From Sphaerolaimus hirsutus (lineage: Eukaryota > Nematoda > Chromadorea > Monhysterida > Sphaerolaimidae), in the NCBI GenBank assembly GCA_964036195.1, contig OZ038459.1, forward strand, positions 19,837,206 to 19,901,205: DNA of 64,000 bases, written 5' to 3'. The notes under the pieces are model-generated. The model saw only the letters and a list, made by a program, of their open reading frames with translations, did not search any database and was not told the DNA's origin. Position 1 is the stretch's first letter. Each line of letters opens with the position of its first letter. Below are positions 4,201 to 62,826 of the stretch, piece after piece. A program made the position numbers and the translations under genes.

Positions 4201-7200
4201 ATACGTCCCTGAAAAATGCCACAAAAAAGATGAAAACAACCACCAGTGCAAATGCGCATGTGAAATCGCGCGCTTGCGCGCGAAAAATTGGAAAATACCT
4301 AGTGCATAAGTACTGAAAATTTTTGCCAGCGCTCTTTTTTTTAAAAAAGCGCTGGGACCCTTGCGCTTTTTTTATTAAAAAAGCGGCGTTTTTTTAAAAA
4401 AAAGCGCTTGAAAAAAGCGCTGGCCATCCCTAGACACAACCCTAATCAGACCAATACTATTATATTTGCGCATTGCACGCACATTTACAGCGCCCTGCGT
4501 ATGGTGAAAATCGACGCGCATCGACATTGTCGCAGCCGTCTGAAAGAAGCAACCACGATCGACAAATGAGCCACTCGTACAGCGCACACGATGATGATCA
4601 GAGAGCTCCTACTGTGAGTCGCTTTTGAACATTTTTGGGAACACTTTCAATTATTTTGAACCTCAAAGCAAGTTGTGTGACTTTTTCGGTGAAAAACGTT
4701 TTGTCACCATTATTTTGTGATTGGATATGAAAACATTTGTGAGACTTCAAAATTCAAACATTCTAAATGTGATGTGATTCAAATTCGACACTCAAAATTT
4801 TACACGGGGTTCATCATTTTTAGGCAAAATGTTTGTGGGTTTGTTTTACCTTAACTACTTTATTGTACTTAACATTTTCCCAAATCTAAACTGTCAAAAA
4901 ATTCAGTCTACGGAAGTTGTCTACAAACTTTCTGTTGTTTTTTTGGCGTCAAAATCTGAACATTACCCAATTTCGCACTACCCAACATGCGCAGGCGTCG
5001 CCTTCATGCACAATCGACACCATAGCTTCCACGCCGCAGCGCATGCCTCCACATGCAGCCTTGCATGCAGCGCAGCCAGGTGCCAGTCCCGGACCCTGTA
5101 AAATGCCCTGTAAAATGTCAAATGTCACGCAAAGTGTCAATAGTCATGCAAAATGTCCGGTAAAATGGCAAACGTACGTTTGTTATTTTACCGGGCATTT
5201 TACATTACTTTTGACATATTGCATGACATTTGACATTTTACGGGGCATTTTACAGGGTCTGGGACTGCCCCCAGATATCGATGCTCAAATGACGCCCGTG
5301 GTCCAGCAACATGCGTCTCAATTTTCCGCCCATGATCATGCAAATAATGACTTTTATACGCCGATCGCTGGGACAGTTGTTAAGGCGACAGGTGTGGATG
5401 CTGTGAAAATGCAGCGTAGTCCCGATACACCGGATAGTGTTTTCTATGGTTGGTTGGCAGATTATGTTCACTCAAATTTGCTCCGATTTTAACGCAAAAT
5501 CACTTAACTAAACATTTCTCGTTTGTATACTTTTATTTCTACAATTTTGGGCAATTTTTCAAAAAAAAAAACTTTGCGTTATACCTTTCAAAAAGCCAGT
5601 ATAACTGGGCCCGGACTTGAATTCATATCATAATCTCAGTTGCACACTCAATCTGTATTTCCATTCTTGAGTGTCGCCCCACATTCCAAAACCAAGTAAA
5701 TACTCAGAAAACCTCAATCTCCCCCAGGCAACAGCGGCCAACATCAGCGACACCAACCAAACCACCCACCCCCGGCCCCCCTGGCGGACCCCCCTCGCCC
5801 CAGACCCCCGCACCCCTACGCGCCCAGCCACGGGCCCCTCATAGAGCAGCCGAGCGACGACCCGCAGCAGAGAAACGAGCCGAATGTAGACGATTCCCCG
5901 CCGCACAGCGCAAAATTCGTGATTGGCAACGGCGCGGCGGCGGGGAATCACAATGGGGATGAGGGGGAAGAGAATGGCGAGGGGCGGGATGAGGGTGATG
6001 GGACTTGGTGAGGTTTCACGTGTTTTGTGGTTTTTTTGTTTGTCATTCTCATGTTGAATGGATCACATTTAACATTGGATGGATGGATCTGAAAAATCAG
6101 AAAGTCTCTCGAAAAATAAAATATGATTAAATCTCTCGGGGAAAAACGCAGAGAAATATAAATAAAAATGAACGATTTTTTATACTTTCTTCTAAAAAGT
6201 AAATATGATTAAATCTCTCCCGAAAAAAACAAACAAGAGAGAATATAAAAAATATACGATTTTCTATATTTCTTATATTTAAAAAATATTTTCCGAGATT
6301 TTTGGAACGCTATCTCCCTTCAAAGGGATTGCCAACTTATCCTTTCGGGTATTCAAGCATATAGGTATATTTTGTATTTTCTGCTCCCCACCCACTGTTC
6401 AATCCACTTTCAGTTTCTCCTACAACCTGCGCGGTCTATCAGTGGCGCAAAGTCCCCCGCAAGCGACCAGCACCCCCGATCCGTTTCTGCACGAATACAC
6501 GCCCGCCGGGGGTGCGCCGGCTCAGCACCAACAGAGGCGATTTCCACCCCTTCAGAAACAGGGTTGGTGAGATTTGGGTGGATGGGGATGAGCCTGTGCC
6601 TTTGTGCATGTTTACCCGCTGTGCATGTAATGGAGGCCTGCTGTGCATGCAGTCCCGCGGTGTGCATGTAGGGGGGGGGCAACATGAGCATCGGGCCTCC
6701 ATGCACAGCGGGCACCTACATGCGCGCCGGGTTTACAGTCACAAACATTCGACAAAAGGCGATATACGTAACACGTCGGCAAAAAATAAATATTGTTGAC
6801 AGAAATCACCACTTATAATGCTATCCCATGGCTCCACAGCCATTCTATGGCTATATTTGACATCGCAAAGTACTGGCAATTGTCTGATATACCTGTATAT
6901 GTTGACCCATAACCATATTTGGGAGCTTAAAAAACCGTTTTTTGAAAACAAACAAACAGGGTCGTTAATAACCATTTTTTGGCCATCTCTAAACCCTACC
7001 TACATCTCAGAGCCGCCCTCCCGGAACTCGGCGCCCCCAGTCGGTCCCGCACCGGCGGGACATAATCGCACCCCCCAATCGGCACCCCCGCCGTTACAAG
7101 GCACTCAAAACGATAGCCAGCAATCTAAAGGTCCCGCGCACAATCAATCTGCGTCGCAAACGGCTGAGAATTTGTCCCGCGGCAGCACTTCAAGACTGTT

Positions 7201-9943
7201 TGAGTGGGCCGGTAAAACTGCGAGAAAGTATTTGATTAAAGGCCCTAATCCGATGAATTTGCCTGATGATAGCAATCCGACTGTGCGTTTTGATTTGACG
7301 GATTTTTTGATGGGTTGTTGGTGAAATTTCATTGCCTGAACTTGATGAGATTTAACAGAGAAATCCGTCGTGATAGTCATGGTCACATTCCGAGGGCTCA
7401 CGAATTGATCACAATGTCCACTTATCGTATCGCATTCAAATAGGTTCTTTTTATTGTAGCTAGAGAACCCAATTAGTGAATAAAAAGTGGATAAAAATGG
7501 GCCAAAACTAGCTGAAAACCGCAAAAATATGTACCTAAATATAAATTCAAATCCGGTATTACCTCGAATTATCAGCTTGAATTGACCCCCCTCGAAATAT
7601 CCACAGGTCTGAGCGAGGAAATAAAAGAGCCCCCTTAAAACACCCCCACCCGAATTAAGTGTAAAGATAATGTCAAACACAAATATACCCTCCTCGAATA
7701 ACCCCCCCCCCGGAAATACCCCCTCAAAATTTGCCGGCGAATAGATATCTGGGGGTGGGGTGTTACCCCTTTCTCAACCCCCGACCTCACTTTAACTAAA
7801 CCTACCGTCATTTCCCAGATCCGCTACGACCCGAACGCAAAACGCTACATCGGCGAGGGGGTAGAAGAGGACGCTCATCACGGACGGCCGCCCCCCGCAT
7901 CCGATGACGTCAGCGCGGCCGAATTGAAGAATATGCATCATAAGGGCAGTTTGACCGCTGTTAGGAGGAGTGGGGGTTGGTTGGGGGGGGGGTTGGAGGG
8001 GATAGTGGGACAACTTTGAAAAATAATTCGTTATGTTTATGTAGAAATCGCGATTCAAAATGTAGGAATAGTTGTAGGGATAGGAAATGGGTTAATCCCC
8101 AAATCGCCCAGCTATCTGTCTATTCCTGAGATAATTTTTTTTGGCTACTATCCCTTGAATCCCCCACGCCCCAATCGCCCAGCTATCTGACTTTCAAGAC
8201 CGATTTTTGATGAATTTTGCCCCAATGTTTGCTCAAAATGGCCAATTTTTCTACCTTTTGCTCCTTTTCACCTCCAAGATCTGCAACGATTTTTACACTG
8301 GGGCCAGTTCCGCAAGTGGAGTAGTGAGAAGAAAAGTGGCAAATGCGAAGTGAATTGAGAAGAAAAATGGCAAACGCGAAGGGAAATTTCGTTTTCGTCA
8401 TTTCACTTCGTGGGGTGGGAGGAGGCAGCAGGTCCAAATGTATTTAGCCGATTTCTAGATCATTCGCTGGTACAAAATTTTGGATGATGATTAACCCCCC
8501 CCCCCCTCCGCTAACCCCGACTGCTGTGTGTCTGATTTTTGAAAAGTTTCTTTTTGTGGTTGGCGTTTATTTTGCCCATTTTCTTCCCATTTGCCACTTT
8601 TCTTCCCACTTCTCCACTTGCGGAACTGGCACCAGGTCTCCTAAAGTAAATTCGAAACCATCGCAAAAAGCCCCCCCCCCCCCCTCAGGTTTGCGCTACG
8701 CCCAATCGATGACGGATTCGGGCAGAATCCCGGGTCAAAACGATACGCAATCGAATCAACCTGCCGCCGCGCCGCCGCCGCCCCAAAATGACGCGATTCC
8801 TTCCAGTGATAAGGGCGATTCAAAAGTGCAGCAGCAGCAAAAAGTCGCGCCACCAATGATGCACCCCCCTTTGCCGGGACAGTTTTTTGGCTTCATGCCA
8901 CAGCCACCTGAACAGGGTGATGGTTTGTGCTGGTTTCAATTTTTTTTGTTTTTGTTTTCTCTCGAGAATTTATTTGTTGATGCTGAGTGTTTTTTCGTAA
9001 TAAAATTGATTTAAAAATGTGCAGATGGAAATGGCGAACCTACTCCAGATGAGTATGTCGCATCGGATCCTTTCAGTGTGAGTTTTTAGTGTGTGTGTTT
9101 TTTGTTTTTTTTTCACACTAAAATGACTTTTTTGCTCGAATTATCCTCCCGCTGAATTATCTTTTCGTCACACTTTTTTGAGGGGGTGGTTATTCAAGGC
9201 AGGGACGTATCCAGGATTTTAGAGCGGGGGGGGCTGCTTGTTTACGGGGGCCGGCGAACGGGGGGGGGCTCAGCCCCCCCCCCCTAAATTTTTTCCCCAT
9301 ATAGGGACGGAAAGGCGTTTTGGCGCCAGCGCCACACAAAGGCACCACGCCATGGCGCTATTGGCGTTGGCGCCAGCGCCAGGAACCGCTTTATATGTAT
9401 GTAAATATGCATACATATAGAGCGAAAGTCGCAAAAATGAGTTAATTTCCAAGGATATTGGTTTAGAGGGACCGATCCGCTGAAAATGCAATGCATGGGG
9501 AAGAAATTGCGCGCTTGCGCGAAAAAATTTTATGAAAGGTCGAAAGGTCGGCTGCAGCCCCCCCCCGCCCCCCCTGGATACGGCCTTGATTCAAGGGGGA
9601 ATTTTTTTCGTCAAAACTTTAGAACATATTTATAGCAATTCATTTAATGAAATATGCCTTATTAACAGCATAAGATGTCATTTTTGTTCAAATTATTGAC
9701 AACAAATTGGTCATATCCCTGAAGGCGGGGGGTATTTTTGAGGGGGGGAGGGTATTTTTTTCTCACTCGTCTATCAGGGGGATTATTCATATAAATACGG
9801 TATATTTACGATGTGAACGGCTGCAAAAACAGCCCACGCGATAAAATCGACTGCAATCAAAAATTCCTCATTTCCAGGTCGGCCTTCCACCAGAAGAGCT
9901 TTCATCGCAGAACAACCAAATTGCGGCCACCGCGCAGGGCTGA
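1235..9943 (+). CDS. Sec16: Sec16 homologue, C-terminal part (5' end outside window)
   Basis: Sec16 is the peripheral ER-membrane scaffold that organises ER exit sites and recruits Sec23/Sec13-Sec31 for COPII budding. Thirteen exons keep phase: 1235-1498, 2079-2218, 2281-2357, 4491-4613, 4995-5079, 5275-5391, 5728-6007, 6414-6562, 7011-7282, 7819-7975, 8689-8922, 9025-9077, 9878-9943 (TGA). The first encodes ATEIYDYAIRLA and later GAYAMELAERGRPNEAMAYC, matching the end of the Sec16 central alpha-solenoid that binds Sec13. A long Pro/Gln/Asn-rich disordered region follows, with an acidic stretch in exon 7. Exons 9-10 join to LPDDSNPTIRYDPNAKRYIG, the conserved C-terminal Sec16 motif (LPDD-NP-V-D in vertebrates). 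The last residues are AQG. Weakest points are the donor choices at 7975 and 8922, each picked by phase. The intron at 5080-5274 is a single MITE. Family assignment is from remembered family motifs; I am fairly sure. Confidence 0.87.
1515..1670. repeat. CGGTGCGCATGTA word array with inverted arm
   Basis: The words CGGTGCGCATGTA and CGGTGCCCATGTA recur about five times, then appear inverted (TACATGCGCACCG, TACGTGGGCACCG). The stretch is therefore an imperfect palindrome starting 16 bp after a Sec16 exon. Related arrays sit at 6595-6735 and 25975-26420. Confidence 0.7.
2384..3104. mobile_element. TAGGGTTCAAACG hAT-like MITE with CGATATTCGATAT words
   Basis: Termini are TAGGGTTCAAACG and its exact inverse. 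The perfect 8-bp TSD is AATACAAT (2376-2383, 3105-3112). The arms are built from repeats of CGATATTCGATAT; the centre is unique. It lies in Sec16 intron 3. The same 13-bp terminus with a completely different interior word occurs at 12232-12826. Confidence 0.92.
3293..4432. mobile_element. TAGGGATGG hAT-like MITE with a nested CAGGGACG element
   Basis: Termini TAGGGATGG / CCATCCCTA; perfect 8-bp TSD GACACAAC (3285-3292, 4433-4440). The arms consist of AAAAAGCGCTTTTT words. The core resembles that of 250-930. An independent element occupies 3770-4211, so this one is older. Both lie in Sec16 intron 3. Confidence 0.92.
3770..4211. mobile_element. CAGGGACGTATC-type hAT-like MITE (nested)
   Basis: Ends CACGGACGTATCC / ATACGTCCCTG with a perfect 8-bp TSD AAAAATGC (3762-3769, 4212-4219). 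The interior has long G and C runs near both ends and a GGCGCC-rich segment near 4030-4095. It is homologous to 9200-9588 and 1-127. Confidence 0.9.
5080..5274 (+). mobile_element. GTGCCA/TGCCCC MITE forming an entire Sec16 intron
   Basis: The element (5080-5271) plus one copy of its CAG target is exactly the intron between Sec16 exons 4995-5079 and 5275-5391. It begins GTGCCAGTCCCGGACCCTG, which supplies the GT donor. It ends GGGTCTGGGACTGCCCC followed by CAG, which supplies a C-rich acceptor. The second CAG is the last three bases of the upstream exon. The interior is a palindrome of CATTTTACA and TGACATTTGACA words. Splicing restores frame (phase 1) and gives codon GAT at the junction. Confidence 0.88.
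6595..6735. repeat. TGTGCATGTA word array in a Sec16 intron
   Basis: TGTGCATGT words in direct orientation give way to inverted copies (CATGCACAGC, CTACATGCGCG). The composition resembles 1515-1670. It directly abuts the truncated element at 6735-7000. Confidence 0.6.
6735..7000. mobile_element. Truncated TAGGGTTTAG-type relative of the 250-930 element
   Basis: The segment carries the conserved core of the 250-930 family (ATCACCACTTATAATGC...). It ends in GGCCATCTCTAAACCCTA, a recognisable right terminus. The left terminus is missing. It ends about 13 bp before the acceptor of the Sec16 exon at 7011. Confidence 0.6.
7545..7745. mobile_element. Degenerate CCGTATTTC-type MITE
   Basis: CCGGTATTACCTCGAATTATC at the left and C-rich TCGAAATA / CCCCC words through the segment match the TA-target family seen intact at 38034-38478. 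The ends are decayed and no TSD can be read. It lies in a Sec16 intron. Confidence 0.45.
8301..8632. mobile_element. GGGCCAGTTCC/GGAACTGGCAC MITE
   Basis: Termini GGGCCAGTTCCGCAAGTGGAG and CTCCACTTGCGGAACTGGCAC are inverse copies. The outer eight bases are those of the GTGCCA/TGCCCC family at 5080, but the interior words differ (AAATGGCAAATG, GAGAAGTGAA). Flanking triplets are CTG and CAG, so the TSD is imperfect. It lies in a Sec16 intron. Confidence 0.75.
9200..9588. mobile_element. CAGGGACGTATCC hAT-like MITE
   Basis: Termini CAGGGACGTATCCAGG / CCTGGATACGGCCTTG; perfect 8-bp TSD ATTCAAGG (9192-9199, 9589-9596). It sits inside a decayed CCGTATTTC-type element (about 9130-9805), within the last Sec16 intron. 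Confidence 0.9.
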
Positions 9944-18699: not shown

Positions 18700-19959
18700 T
18701 CACTTTCCACCCAGCGAGCCCAAAATCTTGATCACCCAACTCTGGTCCTCGCAGGAGCCCGTATTCCTGTGGCAGCCATTGCAATAGTTCTGGTGCATCT
18801 GGGCGCTGCCGCCGGGGTAGGTGCACGCGTCCGTGTTGGCCTTGCCGCCGGGCTTGCAGCACACGTAGCAGGTGCACGTGCGCGCCGGGCCTCGTTTCTG
18901 CCCGTTGATTGTGGGCACCACTTGACCCTGGGGGGGGGGGTTGTGAGTCTTGTGACCATTGGTCAGTTGATGGTGTTTTAGTGTGGTAGTGCTGTTGTTC
19001 GAGTTTTTGGCTTGGAGCTAGTGTTACAGGGCACACACACAAGTTGACATCGACACCAAATGTCAACTGTTTCCGATCCAAATTCAAAGCTTGCATTTGA
19101 ACGTTGTTCGTCGACTCATCAGCAGGCTTTGAATCGGGATCGGAACCAGTTGACACTGAGTGTCGATGTTAACTAGTGTGTGTAGGGCCGTAGTGCCTTT
19201 ACATGGCTAGTTTGCGCAGTTGTAATGATTGTTCATTCTGCTCAACTTAAGCACTCGTTTCTTTGAAGTTAAATGTTTCGAAACGGCATTTTCAAACTTC
19301 CATGTCTATGTTTCAATTCAAGTCTCACATGCCCACAGGTAGTGATGTAAAAGCGCCATTCTGGCGCTAGCGCCAAAGTGAAAAGTGATGCCATGGTGCT
19401 TTTGGCGCTTGGCGCTGTGGGTCAGAACAGGGCCATGGCGCTTGGCAGCAAAATTCTGGCGCCTTTCCATCACTACCCACAGGTTGAGCGACACCGTTTG
19501 CCATCGCATCATAAATTTCTACCATATTTCCTCGAAATACCCCCAACGGGCTTATTTTTTCACAGTGTAAATATTGAGGGGAGTAATTCGAGGGAGAATG
19601 TATTCGGAGGGAGGGGGGTATTATTTCGCCAGGATTTTTTCCTGTATGCGCTGTTTTTTCGTAACTCAGTAGAGTTACTATTTTAACATGTGCTATGCAT
19701 TACACAGATCACAAGTTTTGGGCAATTAGGTACATTCTCTTTACAGTTTACACTCTTTTCAGTTGAGGGCATTTCAAGGGGGTATTTGCCTATAAGCTCT
19801 CTCAGACCTGGGGTATTCCGAGGGGGTGTCGAGGAAATAAAAGTATTTACAAAAGTACAACGGAAGTTATACTACAAAACTAACGGGTGGGGCGTATGCG
19901 GTTTGCAGAGTGATGGCCGCCGCCACCACCAACAGGGTCAGCTTCAGGTACATGCTCAT
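18700..19959 (-). CDS. Small secreted eight-cysteine protein, copy 1
   Basis: Two exons, 19885-19959 and 18700-18927, join in phase 0 to a 100-aa protein. Exon 1 encodes MSMYLKLTLLVVAAAITLQT then AYAPP, a classic signal peptide. Exon 2 encodes the whole mature region: a basic start (GQKRGPARTC), cysteines spaced C-x-C-x2-C-C-x10-C-x11-C-x2-C-x6-C, and a Gly/Leu-rich tail ending SLGGK. I do not recognise the family; an extracellular, disulfide-rich protein (for example a host-defence or matrix peptide) is an inference only. The encoded protein matches copy 2 residue for residue in exon 2. The intron carries MITEs at 19027-19190 and 19340-19475. The acceptor is preceded by a long C run. Confidence 0.82.
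19027..19190. mobile_element. GGCCCTACACACACTAG-type palindrome in the copy 1 intron
   Basis: GGGCACACACACAAGTTGACATC pairs with GATGTTAACTAGTGTGTGTAGGGCC. The arms continue through ATTCAAAGC words. The same insertion is present in copy 2 (about 26563-26735), so it predates that duplication. Confidence 0.7.
19340..19475. mobile_element. TAGTGATG hAT-like MITE with GGCGCC words
   Basis: Termini TAGTGATG / CATCACTA; perfect 8-bp TSD CCCACAGG (19332-19339, 19476-19483). The interior is GGCGCTAGCGCC and GGCGCTTTTGGCGC words. An orthologous copy is at 26878-27014 in the duplicated gene. Confidence 0.92.
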
Positions 19960-20254
19960 GATTCTTGTGAAGGAAATATTTCACAATTTTGTGACTGCTT
20001 TGATAAATGCTGTATTTTGCTGCTCATTTTATACTACCCCATATCGCCCGCAGTCGACACACCTGTGATTTTTGCAAACACCGCTATATGACATGAAACC
20101 AATAGTTAAACCAATTTCTCAAACTAAACTACGGTAAAGTGGTGATTATAAAACCCACCGTGGCTTTACACAAGATAAAGTTTGAATTTAAGGTCAGGCT
20201 CGGGTGTGGAGCTTCACCTGTCAAATCTATTGGGCTAATTGAAATTTACCCCTG

Positions 20255-20895: not shown

Positions 20896-20931
20896 GTCCT
20901 GGCGCATTTTGCGCTTGACAACATTTGAAGG

Positions 20932-23225: not shown

Positions 23226-24048
23226 CTGTATTTCCTCGAAATACCCCCCTCAAAATACCCCCGTCTCGAAATAACCCCCTCAAAATGGGCACTATGAACT
23301 TAAACCCCCCTCGAAATACCCCCCCCCCCAATTTACGTATAGAGAATGTAATGTGGTTTGTGATCTGGGAAACGCAGAACACATGTTAAAAACAATCACT
23401 GTGTTATGTTAGAACTGGTAATATACTGTCTACCGTATTTCCTCGAAATACCCCCCCCCCTTGAAATACCCCCCCCCCCTCGTTTGACCCCCCCCCCTCT
23501 CGAGACCACTATGAAACAATCACCCCCCCCTCGAAATACCCCCCCCAAATTGAGTGTAAAGGGAACGTACATTACAATAACTGTAGTTTGTGTTCTGTGT
23601 ACTGCAGAACACACGTTAAAACAATGTCGGTGTCACGTTAGAACAGTGTACTTACCATCTACATACTAATATTAGTCTACAGAACCTTATAAATGGCGGT
23701 TTTTGTTGCATTTTTCGACGTCTGCGTACGTTTCAGACGACAATTTCGTACTTGGTTTTCAAAAATTTTCTTGTGAAACAATAACCCCCCCCCTCGAAAT
23801 ACCCCCCCCCCCTCGTTTAACCCCCCCCCTCTCGGGACCACTATGAAACAATCACCCCCCGGGGGGTATTTCGAGGAAATACGGTACGTACATATTTATG
23901 TCCATAGAGTGTTATAAATGGCGGTTTTTGTTGCATTTTTCAACATTTGTGTACGTTTCAAACAACAACAATTTTAAACCCCCCCCCCTCAAAATTCTCA
24001 CTCTGAAAAAATACCCCCCCCCCCCAGGGGTAATTCGAGGAAATACAG
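23226..24048. mobile_element. CTGTATTTCC TA-target MITE with a nested copy
   Basis: CTGTATTTCCTCGAAATAC at 23226 pairs with CGAGGAAATACAG ending 24048, flanked by TA. A second family member, CCGTATTTCC...GGAAATACGG at 23433-23884 with its own TA flanks, is inserted inside. Interiors are C-run and TCGAAATACCCCC words. Confidence 0.82.
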
Positions 24049-24880
24049 TAAGTGGTGAGCTTGGGGAAGGGATTCCATAAGTTTGACTACTGCGGGGAGT
24101 GTGTCCTTGTGCCATTTTCCATCAGGAGTTTGATGTCATTTACTTGCATGTCATATATTCTTAAGGGTTCCCAGATGTGTGGATGTGGCTGCCTGGTGTA
24201 TGGGTGAATTTCTTCCCTGATGTAAAATGAAAAAAAAATTGAATTTTTCAATTTGCTCTAGCTGTGGCTGATAACACTCAGTATTCGACACAATTAAGGT
24301 ATTGATTCATATATTATCCACAAAAAAATTGTAGACCTGTAGCATCATCCACACTCATGTAATTGATTTTACAACGTAATTTTACATCATCATTTTATGT
24401 AATATTCATGCTGAGCTGCAATCACAGCTTGACAGCAACTAAACATGTTTTATATCACCGATGACTGGTGTGAAGAACCGCTGGCAGAAACAGCAATAGC
24501 CGACTTTATTACTCATGTTTTGCAAGTTCGAGTGGGAAATCCGTCTAAAATTTTGTGGAAAAAATACCCATAGTTGAATTTGCAGTTCCACCCTATCGTG
24601 GGACGTGTCAAATCTATTTACATAAAATGGGGCAGTACACAATTTAAAAGTGTATTAAGCGGTCAACTTAGTTCACACGTTGTTGTTGTTGATGAACGAA
24701 TTGGAGAAACGACATCAAATGGTGCTAAAATTTTACATGGGTATTTTATTTGCGTTTTCGTCGTTCGTTTTAAAGCCAAATCTGAATATAAAACATTAGC
24801 ATAAATACAGAGAACGTCACAGCTACAAAATATCGCAAACAAATCATCAAAATTACACTACACTCGAATATCCTCTTAAA
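24049..24880. other. Gap ending in the peptide copy 2 3' flank
   Basis: No gene is seen up to about 24640. From there to 24880 the sequence is closely similar to 18460-18695, the 3' UTR side of copy 1, and more distantly to 29760-30000 beside copy 3. This marks the edge of the duplicated unit. Confidence 0.6.
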
Positions 24881-27477: not shown

Positions 27478-27772
27478 GATTCTTGTGATTAAAATATTTC
27501 ACAATTGTGTCACTGTTTTGATAAATGCTGTATTTTGCCGCTCATTTTATACTACCCCATATTGCCCGCAGTCGACACACCTGTGATTTTTGCAAACACC
27601 GCTATATGACATGAAACCAATAATTAAACCAATTTCTCAAACTAAACTACGGTAAAGTGGTGATTATAAAACCCACCGTGGCTTTACACAATATCAAGTT
27701 CGAATTTAAGGTCAGGCTCGGGTGTGGAGCTCCACCTGTCAAATCTATCGGGCTAATTGAAATTTACCCCTG

Positions 27773-27949
27773 GGGGCAGTCCCAGACCCTGTAAAATGCC
27801 CTGTAAAATGTCAAATGTCATGCAAAGTGTCAAAAGTCATGGAAAATGCCCTGTAAAATGGCAACCGAGTTGCCATTTTGCAGGGCATTTTCCAAGACTT
27901 TTGACACTTTGCATGACATTTGACATTTTACAGGGTCCTGGAGTGGCAC
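27773..27949 (-). mobile_element. GTGCCA/TGCCCC MITE, complete copy upstream of peptide copy 2
   Basis: On the - strand it reads GTGCCACTCCAGGACCCTG ... GGGTCTGGGACTGCCCC, with CAG on both sides (plus-strand CTG at 27770-27772 and 27950-27952). The arms are CATTTTACA/TGACATTTGACA words. The target triplet has the CWG form. Confidence 0.85.
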
Positions 27950-32327: not shown

Positions 32328-32565
32328 GTGCCAGTTCCGGAAATTGAAAAGTGAAGTGGGAAAAGGTGAAGTGAATTGAGACGAAAATTGGCAAAAATGA
32401 AGTGAAAGGGCAAGTAAATTGGCAAAAGCGAAGTAAAAAAAGTAATTAAAAAAATAATGATTTCCCTTCGCTTTTGCCAATTTCTTTCTCAATTCACTTC
32501 TCATTTCTCATTTCACTTCGCATTTGCCATTTCACTTCTCACTTCTCAATTTGCGGAACTGGCCC
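32328..32565 (+). mobile_element. GTGCCAGTTCC/GGAACTGGCCC MITE
   Basis: Starts GTGCCAGTTCCGG and ends TTGCGGAACTGGCCC, with CAG on both sides (32325-32327, 32566-32568). The interior is GAAGTGAAATGGC-type words. It has the same terminus and target form as the intron-forming family but a different interior. Confidence 0.82.
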
Positions 32566-35350: not shown

Positions 35351-35671
35351 AGTGGGGATGGGTGTTTTCTACACTGCCCCAAAATTTCTGCTTTCTACTG
35401 CCCCCAAAACTGGAGGTATGGCATCCGTAGTGTAAAAAATATAGTGGGTGCCGGAACTGAGTGGGACACTGAAAAAGCCAAAAAAATTCTATATACGGCG
35501 ACCCAGCCTGTAGTGAGTCGCCGCGGCCCTGCCCATCCGTGAGAAGAGGGCATTTTTGCTTTTGCGCTGAGTCTACGTGGTCGGTTACGGGATGGTGGAA
35601 GCGTTAATCAGCGGGGTTCGAGTCTCCATGCAGTTTTTGAATGAGTTTTCAAATTGGAACCATGAAAACTA

Positions 35672-36125: not shown

Positions 36126-36653
36126 TAGCTTGTGTGGCCACAATAAGAGCCCCATTGAAATTGGAGGGTACCTAATTTTCGATGCATATTTTTTTGCACA
36201 TTCAGTGTACTCACATATTTATCAAAGGATACAATATTTGTCTTAGCGGCATTAAATTTATTATTAGAATCGACTTAATAAAGCTTGGATACGGGTAAAA
36301 AATGGCAGCATCCAACAATAGAAATCAGACTAGAAGAAAAAAAACATAAAAAGAGAGCCGATATTTCTGTAATTAGGTAAATAACATGCTTAATTTAAAA
36401 GTGCACCGAAAGCAAAAGACAAAGTATTTAGTGTTGCGGCAATTGTGCGAACGGAATGTTTGTGTGAGTAATTGGAAAAATCCTCGACAAGTATCGCAGC
36501 AAGCAATTGAAAAATAAAAAATAGGAATGCCTTGAATTTAGATAAAATTGCAAAAAATAATCATGAATCGCCTTGCTTTAAAAAGAAACTATGCAAATGC
36601 TCTATCTCGAACTGCATGAGCGACGCAATAATATGAAATACCAAATATTTATA

Positions 36654-36769
36654 CCGTATTTCCTCGAATTATCCCCCCGCCTCTAAATACCCCCAGGTCT
36701 GAGCGAGCTGAGCTTCGGGAAGTTTTCCTCACTCGTCTAGCCAAGGGGGAATTATTCGAGTAAATACGG
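36654..36769. mobile_element. CCGTATTTCC TA-target MITE, 116 bp
   Basis: CCGTATTTCCTCGAATTATC / GATAATTCGAGTAAATACGG-type ends flanked by TA. It lies about 130 bp past the beta-tubulin stop codon, possibly inside the 3' UTR. Confidence 0.85.
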
Positions 36770-36897
36770 TATATATAACAGAGCAAAAACACTGCGAGTA
36801 TTATTCCGCACAATTCAAGTACGAACTCCAACTACCCCGACAAAATGTCGGGCTGCCCGACAAAAACCTGTTAGGTCAAAATCATCCACCCCTCAAA

Positions 36898-50990
<14,093 letters not shown>

Positions 50991-52147: not shown

Positions 52148-52180
52148 TACTTGTTAGAGAAAGAGTGCAAAATTGCGCTT

Positions 52181-52251
52181 GCCTCAGGCGGGAATCGAAC
52201 CTGCACCTCTCGTATAGAACACGAGTGCCCTAACCACTAGACTACAGAGGC
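52181..52251 (-). tRNA. tRNA-Arg (UCU)-like gene
   Basis: The 71-nt cloverleaf has a 7-bp acceptor (GCCTCTG/CTGAGGC, one T-T mismatch), a D arm with A box TAGTCTAGTGGTTAGG, a perfect 5-bp anticodon stem CTCGT/ACGAG with loop GTTCTAT (anticodon TCT), a 4-nt variable loop, and a T arm with exact B box GGTTCGATTCC (one A-C mismatch). There is no intron. A TTTT lies 10 nt downstream. The two mismatches leave open a tRNA pseudogene or SINE head. Confidence 0.62.
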
Positions 52252-52559: not shown

Positions 52560-53017
52560 GTGCCAGTTCCGCAAGTGGAAAAGTTAAGAATTAAGAGTTG
52601 AGTAAAATGATAAATGATAAGTTAAGAGTAAAGTTAAAAGTTAAGAGTTGAGTAAAATCACTTGTCGTTTTATTCAACTCTTAACTCTTAACTTTACTCA
52701 TAAGTTGTCATTTGTCATTTTACTCAACTCTTAAGTTTTAACTCTTAACTTTTTCCACTTGCGGAACTGGCCCAAGGTGCCAGTTCTGCAAAATGAGACG
52801 TGAGAAGTGAAATGGCAAAGGCAAAGTAAAAGCGCAAAAGCAAAGTGAAATGGCAAGTGAATTGGCAAGTGAATGGCAAAAATGAAGAGAAATTACTTTT
52901 TCTTTTTCTTTTTTTTACTTTCCTTTTGCTAATTCACTTGCCGTTTCACTTCGTCTTTGCGCCTTTACTTCACATTTGCCATTTCACTTCTCACTTCTCA
53001 TTTAGTGAAACTGGCCC
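52560..53017 (+). mobile_element. Two GTGCCAGTTCC MITEs in tandem
   Basis: 52560-52773 and 52777-53017 each start GTGCCAGTTC and end ACTGGCCC. The boundary triplets run CAG, AAG, CAG, suggesting one CAG target hit twice. Interiors differ: GTTAAGAGTTGAGTAAAATG words in the first, GAAGTGAAATGGCAAA words in the second. They lie 450 bp upstream of the AK1 start. Confidence 0.8.
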
Positions 53018-53473: not shown

Positions 53474-56400
53474 ATGGTGGGTTTGTTTGATGAAACAACA
53501 GAAAAATGTCCTGAGTTGTCATAAATATTTATACTGTTCAGGCACCAATTGAACGCAAGAAGCTGGACCTGGCGCCCCTCAAGAAGGCCAATGCCCCAAT
53601 TTTCTTCATCATGGGTTTGTTTGTGACATAAAGATGCCGTTTTGTTAATTGTACATTGCAATCACTTTGCACTTCAAATTAAAATCAAATGCGTAAAACC
53701 CCACACATACCAGTTGACACCACAAATTTGAGTTAACTGAATGTCGTTAAAACACGAAAACAGAAGAAAAAACAAGAATCACACTAAACGGAAACAATGA
53801 AAATCACGCTATAAAATCAATATTGCTCTATCACATAGGAAAGTTGAAATCACAATAAACCAAAATTGAGTTGACACAAATTTTGAAGTCAACTAGTGTG
53901 TGGACGCTCAAACTGATAGTTATCTAAAAAAGCCTCTCAAAAACACACCCAAAACCGCACCCCCATTGTCATTTGTCATTTGTCAAGGCGGCCCCGGCAG
54001 TGGCAAGGGCACCCAATGCGAGCGTCTTGTCAAAGAATACGGCCTGACCCATTTGTCATCTGGGGACCTGCTCAGAGCTGATGTAGCCAGCGGTTCACCC
54101 AGGGGTGCCCAGCTGCAGGAGGTCATGACTAAGGGAGAACTAGTGCCTTTGGTTTGTTTGTGGGAGTGTTGATTGGGATTGGTGGAATGATGTGTCTTTT
54201 GATTGGATTGGAGATTAGGGGGCACTAACAGACCCTGTCAAATGTCAAATGTCATGTAAAGTGTCAAACGTCATGTAAAATGCCATGGGAAATGGCAAAC
54301 TTGGCTTTTGTCACTTTGCGTGACATTTTACATTTTACAGGGCATTTTACATAACTTTTGACACTTTGCACAGCATTTTACATTTTACAACACTTATTGC
54401 ATAACTTTTGACACTTTGCATGACATTTGACATTTTACAGGGTATATTACATGACTTTTGACACTTTGCATAACATTTTACATTTCACTAGCCATTTTAC
54501 AGGTAATTTTACATTACTTTTGACACTTTCCATGAACTTCTACATTTTACATTGTCTGGGAGTGGCACTAGAGCTCATTGTTACCCCCTTCTTCAAATTT
54601 GTCTGGTCAAATTTCTAATCACATTTCTAATAGGCTACCAAATGTCTCACCTAAACCCCACCCTTTTCCAGGAAGTCGTCCTAGACCTGATCGCAGAAGC
54701 CATGTTGAATGCAGTTGCCAAGGGCAGCCATGGCTTTCTAATTGATGGCTACCCCAGAGAGGTGCAGCAAGGCATCCAGTTTGAGGAGGAGATTATGCCC
54801 TGCAAACTGGCCATCTACTTTGATGTGAAGGAGCAGACTTTGGTGGATAGGTTGTTGGGCAGGGCCAAGACTAGTGGCAGGGTGGGTTGGGGTTGGGGGT
54901 GGTGGAAATTGTTAATTCTATTGAAAAAACTTGAGGAAAGAAAACTCTCAGAAAAAAATTGGTAGATTTCGAAAAAAAATCTGAAAGTATTATTTATATC
55001 TGCATCATTAAATCTCGCGCAAGTCTCTCGCACAAGCATCGCCAGTCTGAGTCAAGCAGTAATTTTTGGACGATGTTTCCGACTTCCATTGAAAATTTAC
55101 AAGGGATCTGAAACTTTACTTGTCAACTCGCACTTTGATCGTTTAACTTGACATTTTACCACTCAAAACAATGCAATTTTTCAATTACATTGTACTCAAC
55201 ACTGTCTGAAATAGACACTCTAAACAAAAAAAATTCTACCAAATTTTTACAGGCTGACGACAACTTGGAAACCATCAAAAAGCGCCTGCACACTTTCTAC
55301 ACTGCCACCGAGCCAGTGGTCGCCCACTATGAGAAGCAGGGCAAGGCGGCTAGGGTTTGTTTATTTGAATTTTTTTGGAATTTTAAGTGTCTGAGAAACA
55401 TGAAGGCGGAGCCTAATTTTGGGTTTTCCTTTTTGTATTTCGAAGTGTAGAAGACTATTTGATATATTTTGTGTACCGTATTCCCTCGAATTACCCCCGA
55501 GGGTTTATTTTTTAATAGTTGAAATGTTGAGGGAATATTTCGGGGAAATACGGTAAATATTTTCCCTTGTAAAGCGGCAGCAGACCCGGACATCCTGTTT
55601 CCCAATGCTCTCAGTGTTTCCTGTGTGCAACAAATTCAAAATGTTATCATCTATTTATGATGATGATATGACATCTGTTACATCTGCATTTGTCTCTACG
55701 CTCCACTACGCAAGAGCCAATGTGCTGACTCATTAATTATGCTGTGAATGCACTCATTGGAGCAATTTTTCATCAGAGTGTACCCTTTCATCACACAAGT
55801 TATTCATTTGTACTGGAAACATGCCCTGTTTAGCGGAATTGACTTTTCACTTCCCGGTGCTTCCTATTCACAGTTTACAATCTCAAATTACAGACAAATA
55901 TCTCCAGGCAACCAAACATCTGTTCAGATTTCCCACAGCAATATAGTAAAAACATAGTGCCTCCAAAGTGCAAATTTCCCACCGAAACCGAACTTTTGTT
56001 TACCGAACTCCGCTAGTGTTGATCCTTAGCAACAGCTGCTAACTTCTATGGCGGCACCGGTAAACAGCACGTAGCATATCGGTTTATATATAGTGGCTAC
56101 ACAGACTAGTTTTCAACCGAAACTTTGAAAACTGATAAATACACTTTGAATGTATTTGAGTTGACAGGAATGAGTTGTTATTAATGTCCGTCAACTGTAG
56201 TTGACGGTAACCTCATTTCGGTAACTGAAATGCGTTCAAAGCTGTTTTAAATATGAGTTTTCAGAGTTATTGTTGAAAACTAGTGTGTCTAGAGCCTTTA
56301 CATACACATACCGACCTTAGTAAATACACAACACCAATGCAGCGCTGCACTAGGATACTTGAATTATTTTAGTTGAATAAATGTACACAGCAGGGACAGT

Positions 56401-56582
56401 GTAGCAAATCTGCAACGTCAGTAGATATTGCCATAGTTGCATCACTTAGCTAATGAAAAAAAGTGCCTCTCATTACAAAAAAGTGATTAAGTGTTTCATT
56501 TTTACAGATCCCAGCTGAGGGAAGCATTGATGACGTGTGGGCGGCAACCAAAAAGATTATGGATGGTGTTTTCAAGAAATAA
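53474..56582 (+). CDS. AK1: Adenylate kinase 1 (short, cytosolic type)
   Basis: AK1 catalyses ATP + AMP = 2 ADP and buffers cytosolic adenine nucleotides. Six exons: 53474-53476 (ATG only), 53542-53614, 53988-54151, 54672-54881, 55253-55354, 56508-56582, totalling 627 nt (208 aa). The Met codon is followed at once by GTGGGT, and splicing yields [11 protein letters not shown] in frame; this start is inferred. [14 protein letters not shown] is the P-loop. [14 protein letters not shown] contacts [17 protein letters not shown] is the AK signature with the catalytic Asp-Arg. The LID is short ([20 protein letters not shown]), as in AK1 rather than AK2. The C-terminus is helical and ends FKK. AATAAA lies 141 nt after the stop. 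The gene converges with the BPI-family gene. Confidence 0.97.
53695..53912. mobile_element. CCACACATACCAGTTGACA-type palindrome
   Basis: CCACACATACCAGTTGACACC mirrors GTCAACTAGTGTGTGG. It is related to the CCTACACACACTAG family and lies in AK1 intron 2. Confidence 0.6.
54219..54568 (-). mobile_element. GTGCCA/TGCCCC MITE in AK1 intron 3
   Basis: On the - strand GTGCCACTCCCAG ... TTAGTGCCCC with CTA on both sides (plus-strand TAG 54216-54218 and 54569-54571). CATTTTACA/TGACACTTTGCA words. It is antisense to AK1 and sits inside a larger normal intron, so it is not itself the intron. Confidence 0.83.
55476..55553. mobile_element. CCGTATTCCC TA-target MITE, 78 bp
   Basis: CCGTATTCCCTCGAATTACC / ATTTCGGGGAAATACGG, TA flanks (55474-55475, 55554-55555). 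The shortest copy in the window; AK1 intron 5. Confidence 0.85.
55560..56507. other. Rest of AK1 intron 5
   Basis: A CTACACAGACTAGTTTTCAACCG / GTTGAAAACTAGTGTGTC palindrome spans about 56090-56297. The remainder is unique AT-rich sequence with no further gene seen. Confidence 0.5.
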
Positions 56583-57225: not shown

Positions 57226-60200
57226 TCACTCCTCCAATCTATATGCATACCACTGCTTATAAACCACATCTGTTTCAACTTCGACAGCATCTCTAAGCAA
57301 CTGCAAATTTGATCTGAGTGTCTTCACACCTGCTACCACTGGGATTGGTATGCCTTTGTGCAGGTATTTGTTAATTGAATCCTCAAAGTATGGCTTGGCC
57401 ATGCCTTCTATGAATTGGAATCCCTCCTCTTGTATGTCTCCAATGTTTGACTGCACTAGCTGTAATCGATTGAGGAATTTTCACTGGTTTACTAAAGAGC
57501 ATCAGAAGAAAAATGGAACACTTCCAAGGGACAGTCCCATGAAAAGTGTGTAGTAAAATGTCAAATGTCAATTGATGAAAGAAATGATTTTATTAGTGAA
57601 CTTTGTCATGTCTTGCAGTTTGACAAATTTCTGTGGCATTTTACATGACATTTCCCTTCACACAGTGCAGACTGCAACCTAGCTGCCAATTAACCTCAAT
57701 TTTGAATGTTTCTGCTTTTAGTGAGCCAGTAATTGCACTGTGCTGCATTGACAGCTGCAATCTGTTGTCCAATTTGACTGTACTTCTGACCAGCAGTTGA
57801 TTAGTGACATTCCAGGGGTGCAGATACAGGTCAGCTGTCAGATTCATGGCTAACTGGGCACCTGAAGGCACATAGTGCGTTTTTTGGATCATGCAGTAAG
57901 GTAAATTGTTTTTGATTGTGCATGTGCCACTCCCAGACCCTGTAAAAGACCCTGTAAAGTGTCAAAGACCCTGTAAAATGTCATGTGTCATGTAAAAGAC
58001 CCTGAATAGTGTCATGTGTATCCAAATCTTATTTGATCATATCCAAATTTGATTTCCATTTTACAGGGTCCTTGACACTTTACATGGTCTTTTCAAGGGT
58101 TTGGGTGTGCCCCCATGTGGGTACTTATGCTGCACCTTGATCTGTTGCTAAAGCCACTGGTGGGTCAGTTGTATACATTATTACATCAATGTAACTGTTT
58201 GGATAACTTTCTGTCAATTGTGGGATCACTGCACCAATGCACATTAGAAAACATTCCGTTGAGAGGTATGGCCCCATTGTGGCAGATGAGTCCTGAGATT
58301 TTTATGTAAAAATATAGAAAATTAATTATGATATGTATACATCCATGATAAAATTATGATGATCCATGATCCATAAAAATTACCTTATCCATGATGAATT
58401 TCAGTTTATTGTGCTTGTGTGCAGAATACAGGAAGGTGTTCAGAATGAAATCAGGGAGCACTCCCAGACCTTGTAAAAAGCCTTGTAAAATGTCAAATGT
58501 CATGCAAAGTGTCAAAAGTCATGGAAAATGCCCTGCAACATGGGAACTCGGTTCCATGACTTTTGACACTTTGCATGACATTTGACATTTTACAAGGCTT
58601 TTACAGGGTCTGGGAGTGGCACCAGTTGCCCAAAGAACAAGCATATGTGTTGTGTTCGCAGCACCATGTGGGGATGGCAAAAGTTTCGGTTCCAATGGTG
58701 TCCTTTCATTGGCATATGTAATCTGAAGTGTTAGTGTTGCTGGAAAATGTCAACATTTGTTACTGCAAATTTAAATGCCACTTACTTCAGCAAATAAATC
58801 TGTCTCTAGATAGTCTTCAGCAATCATTGGGTCTGATGTCATTGCATAGTTCAGGTAAAAATTGTCACCAAGTGATACATTTTGCGGCAATGTTCTCAAC
58901 TTTTCATTTGCATAGTCAACTGCAACACCTTGTACGGCATCGCACACCTTGTCATGCAGCAATGCTAAAATCGATTTATCATTTTGGTTGTAAAAACTTT
59001 TACAGGCCAATGCACACATTTAATTTACCCCTCCCCCAACTCACATTTGATCGTTTTTGAAATGGGTCCACTGAATAGATTCAAAATACTCGGTATAAGG
59101 CCCCCGCTAAATGTGACATCGATTCTGCCCAGTGAAGATGTGCAGTGGGTCAGCTTTACCTGTGGCAGTCCTGTTATTGTCCTGTTAACATAACCGCCCA
59201 CGGAAACAGACAAGTCGTGCGCCACGATGTTGATTGAACCATCCCCATATATTCTGAAGACTACTTTGTACCAGGCGTTCCAATCACCTAAATATTGCAA
59301 TCACAATGTTAGACGCTTAGAATGTCACAATGCAGTTTAGCTTAGATCACAATGTCACAATGTCACAAGCTTAGAAAAAATGCTTTGACAACGACAATGG
59401 TCATGCACAAAAGGTTTTCTACCAAAACTCAAAAATCTTTGAAAATTTATAGATACCATATTCCCCCGAAATACCTCCATTGATTAACACCCCCTAAAAA
59501 TTTGCACTCTGAAAAATAAACCCGGGGAGTATTTAGTGGAAATGCCTTTGACGCTTTTGAATTCACAGGAATAAGTGTCCATCAACCACCTACTGTTGAG
59601 GGAGATAAAAATAAACGATTTTGGTAAAATCAAATGTATTCAAAGCTGATGTATGTTTTCCAACTTTTTTGAAATTTCGGCTTTAGTGTATAGGTAGGCA
59701 CAACCAGAGTTGTCAAAAGTACCGAACTTTTGAAAGTATACGTAAACGGAAAGAATTTTTTTACTTGCCTCCTGTGTACCGGAAACATTAGTAAAAAACT
59801 TTTGTTGACTTTTATCGTGAGTGAACGTGCTTTTCCCCTGGCAAACGAAAATGTGAGTATTTTTGAGAAGAGCCACCCTAATTTTCATTAAAAACTACTA
59901 ATTTTTATTTTTGTTACCTTTTTAAGCGCTTTTTGGCTATGGTAAATATGAGCTTATAAATCCATTTTCGATTATTTTCCACTATTTTTCGCATTTTCGG
60001 ATCCTTTTTCCCTTCTATGCCTTCAAAAATCACCATAAAAGACTATCTGAAATACGTTTTCTGTACTCGAGTACTTTGAAAGAGTATACATAAAACTTTT
60101 TCAGAGGAAACGTAAATATATTTACTGTGTGTACTCGAGTATACGTATTTATCCAGTAAAAGTTATACATATTAAAACAACTATGCGCCCAACATGAACT

Positions 60201-62090
60201 TTTTACCTTCAATGACAACTGCGCCATCTGTTGCACTCCAAATGAACGTGTCCGGGGGTGTCAACTGGTAGGTGAATTTTGGCACATCTATGTGCGCCAA
60301 TTTTATATTTTTGACATAAATCTCTCCATGGCCAGGGCCGTCATCGATTTTCGCTCGCAGCGGTGGCAATTTCGCTGAATGCAACTCTGTTTTGACCAGG
60401 GGGCGGTCCCAAGCCCTGTAGAGTGTAAAGTAAAGTGACAAATGTAAAGTCAAATGCAAAGTCAAATGTCAAATTTAAAGTAAAGTGTCAAATGTAAAGT
60501 CAGGTGTCAATTGTCATGCAAAGTGTCAATCGTAAAGTCTAATGTAAAGTCAGGTGTCAATTGTCATGCAAAGTGTCAATCGTAAAGTCTAATGTAAAGT
60601 AAAGTGTCAATTGTGTATCCAAATATTCTTTTTCGTATCCAAATCTTATGTTTTTGTATCCAAATCTTATTTTTGCGCTATTAAATTTGGATACAAAAAT
60701 AATATTTGGATACACAATTGACACTTTACTTTACATTTGACTTTACATTTTTCACTTTGCATGACAATTAACATTTGACTTTGCATTTGACTTAGCATTT
60801 GACACTTTACTTTACACTTTACAGGGCTTGGGATTGCCACCAGATGTTCTCCAAGTCTTGATGCATAATCCAGGCCATGATTAGTTAGCCTCACTCTCAA
60901 ACCTGACGGTGTTTTGGGGATTATACTTTTTGACTGAATGGAACTTACATAATTTTTCAAGATCAGACATATTTATTTTCACACTGGTTATATTTACATT
61001 GTAAACAAATACATACATCTAAACACCTTCCCGGTCACGTCCGGCAGCCATTTTTTGATGTTACTTCTTATATCCTATCCCCAGTTCTAGAGCGCCCCAG
61101 AAGCTGAAAGTTGGGGGAGATATTGGCGCAACCCCCCTCTACTTCGCATGAATTGGGGGGGTCGCGGCGACCCCCCCAATTCATGCGAAGTAGAGGGGGG
61201 TTGCGACAATATCTCCCCCAACTTTCAGCCTCTGGGGCGCTCTAGAACTGGGGATAGGATATAAGAAGTAACATCAAAAAATGGCTGCCGGACGTGACCG
61301 GGAAGGTGTTTATAAGTAGAGTCACTATTCCGCAAGTGTAAATACCGTATATCCTTGAATAAGACCCCCCCTTGAATAATACCCCCCCCCCCCCTTGAAT
61401 AACACCCCCCTGTTGGCCAGGTGAGGAAAAAATAACGCCCCCCCCCTTGAATAACTCCCCCCTCTTGAATAAGTCCCCCCTCTGGGTAAAACGATCGATG
61501 AGCAACACACGAAAATGAAAACGAGACAAACAGAAAAATAAAGCATGTCTGGGCTGATTCATCGAATGCAATCGAATGAGGTTTGGTGTGTGAAACGACA
61601 AATACAAAAGAATGTTAGCCTATGATATTTTTAGGTTTAGATGATTGAACACGAATTTTAGGATGGATACGTTGTTTTGTTAGTGTTGAACTGGTCATTT
61701 TCTGCATTAGATGTGTTGACGGAATGCATACAAACAATGAATAAAGTGAAAGTTTTCCTGGAAGTTATGAGGAAAAAATAACTCCCCCCCTTGAATAGTA
61801 CCCCCCTTGAATAACTCCCCCCTCCAAAACCTCTGACGAAATAATAACGCCCCTGGGGTCTTATTCAAGGATATACGGTAGGTATTTAAGATACCTACAT
61901 AGAATAAATACAGATTTTACATTTTGTTATTCAAGCTTAAACTTCAAGCACAAGCAACAAATATTGTAATTTTAAAAAGCAAACCAGCAGGTGAAGCAGC
62001 TCTTGCAACATTTTCACTGAACACGTCAGCCTGTGCAAATATCCGTTGGAATATACAAAATGCCAGAAACAATACCAGTGTCAATCGCAT
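57226..62090 (-). CDS. BPI: BPI/LBP-family lipid-binding protein
   Basis: The family (BPI, LBP, CETP, PLTP) are secreted, boomerang-shaped proteins binding LPS or lipids. Exons: 62010-62090 (end uncertain), 60841-60933, 60207-60396, 59029-59287, 58786-58996, 58623-58722, 58384-58451, 58136-58292, 57695-57861, 57226-57459; about 519 aa. It starts with a signal peptide MRLTLVLFLAFCIF. GLRVRLTNHGLDYASRLGEH matches the first mature segment of BPI. TSSLGRIDVTFSGGLI and a conserved Cys pair follow, then LVQSNIGDIQEE and KGIPIPVVAGV, typical of the C-terminal barrel. Two introns (60397-60840 and 58452-58622) are single MITEs and end TG, not AG. The junction at about 59028-58997 needs a 32-nt intron and is doubtful. 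LPS binding is an inference from family. Confidence 0.88.
57924..58113 (+). mobile_element. GTGCCA/TGCCCC MITE in BPI-family intron 8
   Basis: GTGCCACTCCCAGACCCTG ... GGGTTTGGGTGTGCCCC with CAT on both sides (57921-57923, 58114-58116). It is antisense to the gene and lies within a larger GT-AG intron. Confidence 0.82.
58452..58622 (-). mobile_element. GTGCCA/TGCCCC MITE forming an entire BPI-family intron (GT-TG)
   Basis: On the - strand the exon ends ...GCAACTG, then GTGCCACTCCCAGACCC ... GGTCTGGGAGTGCTCC, CTG, then ATTTCATTCTG. Removing 171 nt from GT through CTG rebuilds codon GAT and the segment LWATDFILNTF, which aligns without gap to the LGLSDYFFNTA region of human BPI. CTG occurs on both sides as the TSD. 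No AG lies at the element edge. Confidence 0.85.
59705..60185. mobile_element. CAGAGTTGTC hAT-like MITE
   Basis: CAGAGTTGTCAAAAGTACC / TATTAAAACAACTATG; flanks GGCACAAC and CGCCCAAC agree at 6 of 8. Interior ACGTAAACG and TACTCGAGTA words as at 30380-30885. The right end is 21 bp from the end of BPI-family exon 3, beside its donor. Confidence 0.72.
60397..60840 (-). mobile_element. GTGGCA/CGCCCC MITE forming an entire BPI-family intron (GT-TG)
   Basis: On the - strand, GAACATCTG is followed by GTGGCAATCCCAAGCCCTG ... CAGGGCTTGGGACCGCCCC, CTG, then GTCAAAACAGAG. Excising 444 nt gives GLDYASRLGEHLVKTELHSA, gap-free against human BPI. Canonical AG sites nearby (CTACAG, AACAG) put the next exon out of frame. 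The interior is a palindrome of AAAGTGTCAAATGTA words. Confidence 0.86.
61022..61310. mobile_element. AACACCTTCCCGGTCA near-perfect palindrome
   Basis: Two arms of about 144 bp are inverse copies with only a few mismatches, meeting at GGGGGGTCGCGGCGACCCCC (near 61167). Ends AACACC/GGTGTT are flanked by TA. Such symmetry implies very recent origin or ongoing arm correction. BPI-family intron 1. Confidence 0.85.
61345..61878. mobile_element. CCGTATATCC TA-target MITE (unfilled relative of 37725-38692)
   Basis: CCGTATATCCTTGAATAAGAC / GTCTTATTCAAGGATATACGG with TA flanks. It is colinear with the beta-tubulin intron copy and preserves the empty TA (61668-61669) that is filled there by a 445-bp element. 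Confidence 0.93.
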
Positions 62091-62634: not shown

Positions 62635-62826
62635 GTGCCAATCCCAGACCCTGTAAAAAGCCCTGTAAAATGTCAAGTGTCATGCAAAATGTCAAATGCC
62701 ATGGAAAATGCCCTGAAAAATGGCAAACGTACGTTTGCCATTTTGCAGGGCATTTTCCACGACTTTTGACACTTTGCATAACATTTGACATTTTACAGGG
62801 TTTTTTACAAGGTCTGGGAGTGCCCC
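62635..62826 (+). mobile_element. GTGCCA/TGCCCC MITE, textbook copy
   Basis: GTGCCAATCCCAGACCCTG ... GGTCTGGGAGTGCCCC with CAG on both sides (62632-62634, 62827-62829). Near-perfect palindrome of CATTTTACA words centred on AAACGTACGTTT. Intergenic, so a good reference copy for the intron-forming family. Confidence 0.88.

Follow-up and report, generated by a model that had tools for sequence, protein, structure and literature searches.

A CWG-targeting hairpin MITE family as a probable animal Introner, with proposed GT-AG or GT-TG introns according to the target base

In the nematode Sphaerolaimus hirsutus, a family of non-autonomous hairpin MITEs with CWG targets of the PIF/Harbinger-NuwaI kind probably works as an Introner. 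Judging from the sequence, copies inserted at CAG would be removed as GT...AG introns and copies inserted at CTG as GT...TG introns. The family, designated Family A, is that of seven hairpin elements listed in an earlier sequence-only reading of a stretch of 64,000 nt of contig OZ038459.1, referred to below as the window.

All seven elements were found in the window, each between identical flanking triplets and each with the GTGSCA terminus previously described. The other terminus proposed at that time, TGCCCC, holds for only five of the seven, the exceptions being TGCTCC at 58455 and CGCCCC at 60400. The end sequence of the family, GGGGCANTCCC, adjoins the CWG target. Three elements lie in exons of modelled genes, all in sense orientation. 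The first (5080..5271, plus strand) lies within a Sec16-like coding exon between two CAG triplets (5077-5079 and 5272-5274), and its exact excision yields GT...CAG. The other two, at 58455..58622 and 60400..60840 (both minus strand, the latter 441 bp long), split different coding exons of a BPI/LBP-family gene; their target site duplication (TSD) in GT orientation is CTG, and exact excision yields GT...TG in both cases. The 58455 copy, the only one folded, forms a long hairpin with a folding energy of -120.8 kcal/mol (z -21.5). Two antisense copies are located within GT-AG introns, one of adenylate kinase (54219..54568, minus strand, TSD CTA) and one of the BPI/LBP-family gene (57924..58113, plus strand, TSD CAT). 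The last two, at 27773..27949 (minus strand) and at 62635..62826 (plus strand, upstream of the BPI/LBP-family gene), are flanked by CAG and lie in no recognised gene. Three further copies were absent from the earlier list: a Family A-like element in sense orientation in beta-tubulin intron 1 (50726..50900, minus strand), whose flanks (ATG/TGA) form no clean 3-bp TSD, a degraded copy at 39329, and a truncated sister of the 27773 copy at 20255. The latter is not independent of the 27773 copy, since both belong to one segmental duplication (19032-20138 and 26572-27656, about 92-95% identity in the listed pieces), which adjoins 20255 and 27773. The intronic copies at 54219, 57924 and 50726 prove nothing on the birth of introns.

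The host genes were modelled along with two others used as splice-site controls. The BPI/LBP/CETP-family gene (57226..60933, minus strand) has nine modelled exons, its N-terminal end lying outside the model, and its protein matches PDB entry 1ewf (E 1.2e-25), PF02886 (4.9e-31) and PF01273 (1.2e-19); as the query of a protein search, the same protein gave no match at 0.001 among 7923 candidates. The partial Sec16-like gene (1236..8915, plus strand, PF12931 1.7e-5) also has nine modelled exons. The controls are a beta-tubulin gene of 8 exons (36898..50990, minus strand), in which 7 of 7 introns are GT-AG, and a partial adenylate kinase gene (53542..56579, plus strand, PF00406 8.3e-51), in which 4 of 4 modelled introns are GT-AG. 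Over the four genes, GT-AG ends are found in 25 of 27 modelled introns, the 5080 element being counted among the 25; exon ends were homology-guided in the tubulin, adenylate kinase and BPI models, and the Sec16-like gene has a less certain linker region and exons picked with GT-AG in mind. The non-GT-AG introns are exactly two, the CTG elements at 58455 and 60400.

The window also carries a second hairpin family, Family B, with the related ends GTGCCA and GGGCCA. Its members are found at 8301..8632 (minus strand, flanks CTG/CAG), at the 3' terminus of an intron of the Sec16-like gene; at 32328..32565 (plus strand, TSD CAG/CAG); at 45783..46187 (minus strand, CAG/TAG), within tubulin intron 1 and carrying tandem repeats of 31 bp internally; and at 52560-52773 and 52777-53017 (plus strand), where two elements stand head to tail and share one triplet in the order CAG-element-AAG-element-CAG. 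In GT orientation, the 3' flank of Family B ends in AG in 5 of 5 window copies and in 0 of 3 copies elsewhere (CAA, CTG, CTG). Another repeat family, made of TACCGTATTTCCTCGAAATACCCCC-type units, occupies 23259-24053, 35668-38483 and 61341-61870. A near-perfect inverted repeat (61014-61318, arms of 152 nt, 97% complementary) lies upstream of the modelled BPI-family gene, and a tRNA-Arg(TCT) is located at 52180-52251 on the minus strand.

The whole genome (348.5 Mb, 762 contigs) was scanned for Family A. The exact 27-base left end was found 978 times with CTG and 1161 times with CAG, and 0 times with a reversed-pattern control. Exact left GT-ends preceded by any triplet not starting with T number 2493 genome-wide; the first 100 of them listed, tallied by hand with this T-initial exclusion, carry CTG (44), CAG (40), CCG (5), CGG (5), CAT (3), ATG (2) and CTT (1). 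The choice of target triplet is thus clearly non-random. A short-pattern count aimed at older copies gave 1644 right ends with CTG, and no match to a 39-base sequence was obtained in viral contigs scanned for exact identity. A set of 84 copies was then drawn from the fetched loci L001-L078 and the window, 79 of them in the fetched loci, L001 being the 5080 copy of the window. The copy caller accepts a left end only with GT and no more than 3 mismatches over 24 bases, and diverged copies such as 60400 escape it; the right end was located by the terminal repeat alone, without use of the TSD. In this set, 70 copies measure 110-197 bp (peak at 189-192) and 14 measure 227-437 bp. The left/right TSD pairs are CAG/CAG in 27, CTG/CTG in 21, CTG/CAG in 11 and CAG/CTG in 2, the other 23 falling in smaller classes. 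Among the 45 copies outside the window with a matched CAG or CTG TSD, the target context is C(31/45)-CWG-G(24/45). The asymmetric, splice-ready ends of the sequence-only reading were recovered as well: one terminus is GTGCCA, the other GGGGCA, and the GT adjoins the left TSD. At the second terminal position, the GGGG end has G in 79 of 84 copies, and the GTG end has the T that the caller requires. Matched-triplet ends 0.6-4.0 kb apart were also encountered in the fetched loci (at least 17 pairs listed, in one strand orientation, with at least two pairs duplicated across overlapping loci); they look as if adjacent copies had been paired by chance.

The orientation of the copies was assessed on their joined flanks with a codon score, in which the true frame is told apart from the other five. 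Of 79 copies, 29 were classified as sense, 3 as antisense, 8 as ambiguous and 39 as noncoding-like, with class thresholds set by the authors and a score trained in part on the copies themselves (11 of 15 training sequences). The excess of sense over antisense (p=2.6e-6) agrees with the bias anticipated for exonic copies. The score placed the 5080 copy in the noncoding-like class, whereas the gene model places it in an exon. With a simpler score, 24 of the 84 copies were clearly sense and 4 clearly antisense, 20 being ambiguous and 36 noncoding-like.

Removal of the elements restores conserved coding sequence. Once the element and one CTG are taken out, the BPI-family protein aligns gap-free with BPI (1ewf) at both junctions. 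The repeated CTG permits several equivalent cuts in the BPI-family copies, none of them GT-AG, and the cut starting with GT ends in TG. Pfam matches at 0.001 were obtained with 3 of 10 proteins in a first set, 7 of 10 being without match, and with 6 of 7 proteins in a second set, two of these six being window genes and one repeating L022. A CTG/CTG copy at L016 interrupts an OSCP1 domain (PF10188, 4.4e-17; residues 7-48 on profile positions 48-89, junction at residue 36). A second copy of that locus, CAG/CAG, has its junction inside a PF10188 match of 50 residues on 50 positions; this OSCP1 gene, with one family member of each type, constitutes a natural paired comparison. The CTG/CTG copy at L022 lies in a chondroitin N-acetylgalactosaminyltransferase domain (CHGN, PF05679, 5.9e-16), where residues 25-128 cover profile positions 410-512 (104 on 103) with the junction at residue 66. 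Further matches were obtained at L061 (left CTG, right CAG; 7tm_2, 92 residues on 102 positions, not gap-free), at L002 (CAG/CAG; 7tm_1, 61 residues on 62 positions) and at L074 (CAG/CAG), where a FAT4-like cadherin match stops one residue short of the junction. Insertion followed by excision would therefore leave the mRNA unchanged at the BPI, CHGN and both OSCP1 junctions, which lie within colinear or near-colinear matches. Family A is a repeated family with copies interrupting coding exons as intron-like inserts and, given the sense bias of its exonic copies and the exact restoration of the exons, it behaves at the sequence level as an Introner.

Retention of the elements would have other consequences. 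The 5080 copy, if retained, is in frame and without stop; the 58455 copy would introduce one in-frame stop and the 60400 copy at least 8 stops in every frame. At least one in-frame stop arises on retention in 40 of 41 exonic-like copies, the exception being the 5080 copy, and in 11 of 11 exonic-like CTG/CTG copies. Frame-preserving retention is ruled out as a general explanation by these stops in 58455, 60400 and the 40 copies. Another scenario considered, in which a GT...CAG intron is reverse-spliced into CTG, leaves the CWG on the left side unexplained.

The sequence-only reading held that the target dictates the intron class. This is correct for exact excision, which gives GT-AG at CAG and GT-TG at CTG; it does not hold as a fixed rule, since AG now stands at the end of 5 of the 13 CTG insertions in the exonic-sense class. 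The acceptor was counted as the dinucleotide that follows the C run at the element end. Among exonic-sense insertions, those at CTG have AG in 5 and TG in 8, and those at CAG have AG in 15 and TG in 0 (Fisher p=0.013); with the ambiguous copies included, the counts are 8 AG and 11 TG for CTG, 17 AG and 0 TG for CAG (p=0.0033). The corresponding noncoding-like counts are 5 AG and 8 TG for CTG, 11 AG and 3 TG for CAG (p=0.42). Genome-wide, exact ends show a CAG:CTG ratio of 1161:978 on the left (54.3% CAG) and 945:645 on the right (59.4% CAG; p=0.0019). Loci L001-L008 originated from a query carrying a right CAG; without them, the asymmetry is 10/31 vs 3/25 over all copies (p=0.11) and 7/18 vs 0/11 over sense and ambiguous copies (p=0.026). 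Exact ends paired by coordinate on one contig gave CTG/CTG 10, CTG/CAG 4, CAG/CAG 12 and CAG/CTG 2 (p=0.65). The exonic-sense counts suggest that GT-TG introns may be born at CTG and later become GT-AG. On the same reading, a mismatched TSD would record a conversion from non-canonical to canonical, since the change hits the intronic TSD copy only. An exonic bias to CAG, also anticipated, was not borne out: the left-end CAG:CTG ratio of all copies (1.19) lies below the 125:89 (1.40) of the coding supply, in a loose test that sets all copies against the triplets available on the coding strands of the four genes modelled in the window.

The mismatched TSDs may instead have been made at integration, by imprecise joining at CWG, and selection would then only act as a filter, a view that we hold to be possible but doubtful. 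T-A swapped TSDs occur in 5 of 13 and 3 of 14 noncoding-like copies with left CTG or CAG (3 of 11 and 3 of 13 without L001-L008) and, at 5 and 3, exceed the other changes (3); part of the TSD mismatch may accordingly arise at insertion. Mismatched TSDs also occur in six more noncoding-like copies with other left triplets. Integration errors alone would however account poorly for the one-sided direction among exonic copies (5, or 8 with the ambiguous ones, vs 0) and for the significant left-right difference in the genome-wide counts. Of the changed right TSDs of the noncoding-like copies with left CTG or CAG, these swaps make up 8 of 11; they affect the middle base and are not transitions, even in copies outside recognised exons. 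The CTG/CAG copies are not clearly older than the CTG/CTG copies by median nearest-neighbour identity (0.883 vs 0.878), and their mean end mismatches are 1.91 vs 1.43, a difference given without significance test.

It is less likely, and in our opinion improbable, that Family A is an Introner whose CTG copies are spliced as GT-AG at nearby AGs of the element or the exon, with few codons changed and TG never used. Canonical in-frame options that alter the protein do exist in the window: at 58455, an AG inside the element end adds 9 nt; at 60400, GTAAAG with an exonic AG adds 6 nt, and the first GT with an exonic AG removes 12 nt. Among the exonic-like CTG/CTG copies, 9 of 11 have GT-AG options changing at most 30 nt when shifted donors are allowed, but the remaining two (L020 and L038) have no in-frame alternative of that size in the range scanned. 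The options moreover vary from copy to copy and often need donors that lie 10-13 nt upstream or 18-44 nt inside the element, and in 8 of the 12 CTG/TG copies that are sense or ambiguous (counting the one in the window), a C stands at the position at which a terminal AG needs G. The colinearity of the BPI-family protein with BPI at exact excision also stands against splicing at nearby AGs, which furthermore predicts no AG excess at the right TSD.

Still less credible is the possibility that insertion of the CTG copies in exons is recent and disruptive, so that they mark broken or polymorphic alleles rather than introns. The CTG/CTG copy in OSCP1 has zero mismatches at both 24-base ends and is for this reason probably young, and the in-frame stops on retention in all exonic-like CTG/CTG copies would fit disruption. 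CTG-sided ends are nevertheless almost as common as CAG-sided ones (978 vs 1161), the 60400 copy is diverged although its gene, as far as modelled, is otherwise open, and mere gene disruption would not predict a sense bias. That these are ordinary MITEs falling in exons by chance is very hard to believe: 54219, 57924 and 50726 do lie inside introns and 39 of the 79 sampled copies are noncoding-like, but 29 sense copies were found vs 3 antisense and conserved sequence is restored exactly.

The reading of Family A as an Introner can be formulated as the following mechanism. In one terminal repeat of a NuwaI-like MITE, position 2 would have become T, as the contrast of GTG with GGG implies. In a sense insertion at CWG, the left TSD would then be followed immediately by the GT 5' splice site of the element, and the final dinucleotide of the right TSD would serve as the 3' splice site, AG from CAG and TG from CTG. 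Removal of the element and one TSD would restore the exon exactly with either target. The TG acceptor would be tolerated in at least some genes and tend toward replacement by AG, and the left TSD copy, remaining exonic, would record the original target. We infer the use of TG by the spliceosome, its later selective replacement by AG and the mobilization of the family by a NuwaI-type transposase. The full proposal, in which the target base decides which of two intron classes arises from a single animal transposon family, TG is tolerated and then converted in the intronic TSD copy only, and the G-to-T change at position 2 was the enabling step, is given an even chance of being right.

Several components of this proposal have known counterparts. 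The NuwaI group of the PHIS (PIF/Harbinger-ISL2EU-Spy) superfamily has CWG TSDs, termini usually starting with GGG and reports from animals only, according to the available part of PMC4482050. The PIF/Harbinger-type affiliation first proposed from the CWG targets fits this group, with which Family A shares the CWG target duplication and an animal host; GGG is present at one of its two ends. The FAT4-like cadherin, 7tm_1, 7tm_2, CHGN, OSCP1 and BPI matches indicate that the host is an animal. Unlike NuwaI, the element is here a hairpin MITE whose other end begins with GTG, and intron creation is unmentioned in the available part of PMC4482050. DNA-transposon Introners that carry their own 5' splice site and take the 3' splice site from the TSD were described by Gozashti et al. 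2022 (PMC9860276), where the accessible text places Introners in two animal groups and names copepods. The Chrysochromulina Introners of that work divide the splice sites between element and TSD in the same way, with a 4-bp TSD and no TIR, whereas Family A has a 3-bp CWG TSD, a full-length hairpin and a target base that alters the acceptor. GT-TG splice sites were reported for the introner elements IE-B and IE-D of Micromonas (25 and 6 members; PMC3879977, as far as available), which are likewise repeat introns with a TG end; in that case both classes are given as GT-TG, whereas here a single family would end in AG or TG according to the site. In Amoebophrya introners, the intron is likewise folded by inverted repeats, with direct repeats across the splice sites and non-canonical ends, but over 60% of introns are non-canonical without clear signature (PMC7789003, in the portion available), as opposed to a fixed GT donor and otherwise GT-AG introns in four genes here. 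Fritillaria borealis is an animal with many non-GT-AG introns; 95% of its introns escape GT/AG (PMC13326754, partial text), whereas here only the element-derived ones do so in four modelled genes. Introners, TSD-borrowed acceptors and GT-TG introners are therefore already published, and what appears to be new is the proposed origin of two intron classes from one family by target base. No CWG/NuwaI introner or target-base rule was found in the literature, searched by title or abstract start with few subscription papers.

How new introns originate and gain efficiency is an old open question. Family A probably offers hundreds of sister insertions as a controlled contrast, AG vs TG acceptor with a similar body and the same donor; the figure is extrapolated from the exonic-sense fractions outside L001-L008 (13/33 CTG-left and 10/26 CAG-left) and the genome totals of 978 and 1161. 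The flanking exon keeps the target base as a record of the starting state, and what a non-canonical acceptor costs, and how fast it is replaced, would thereby become directly measurable. The proposed mechanism would also tie the Introners of one animal to a named group of CWG-target transposons and could explain how insertions come to be pre-adapted to 3' splice sites.
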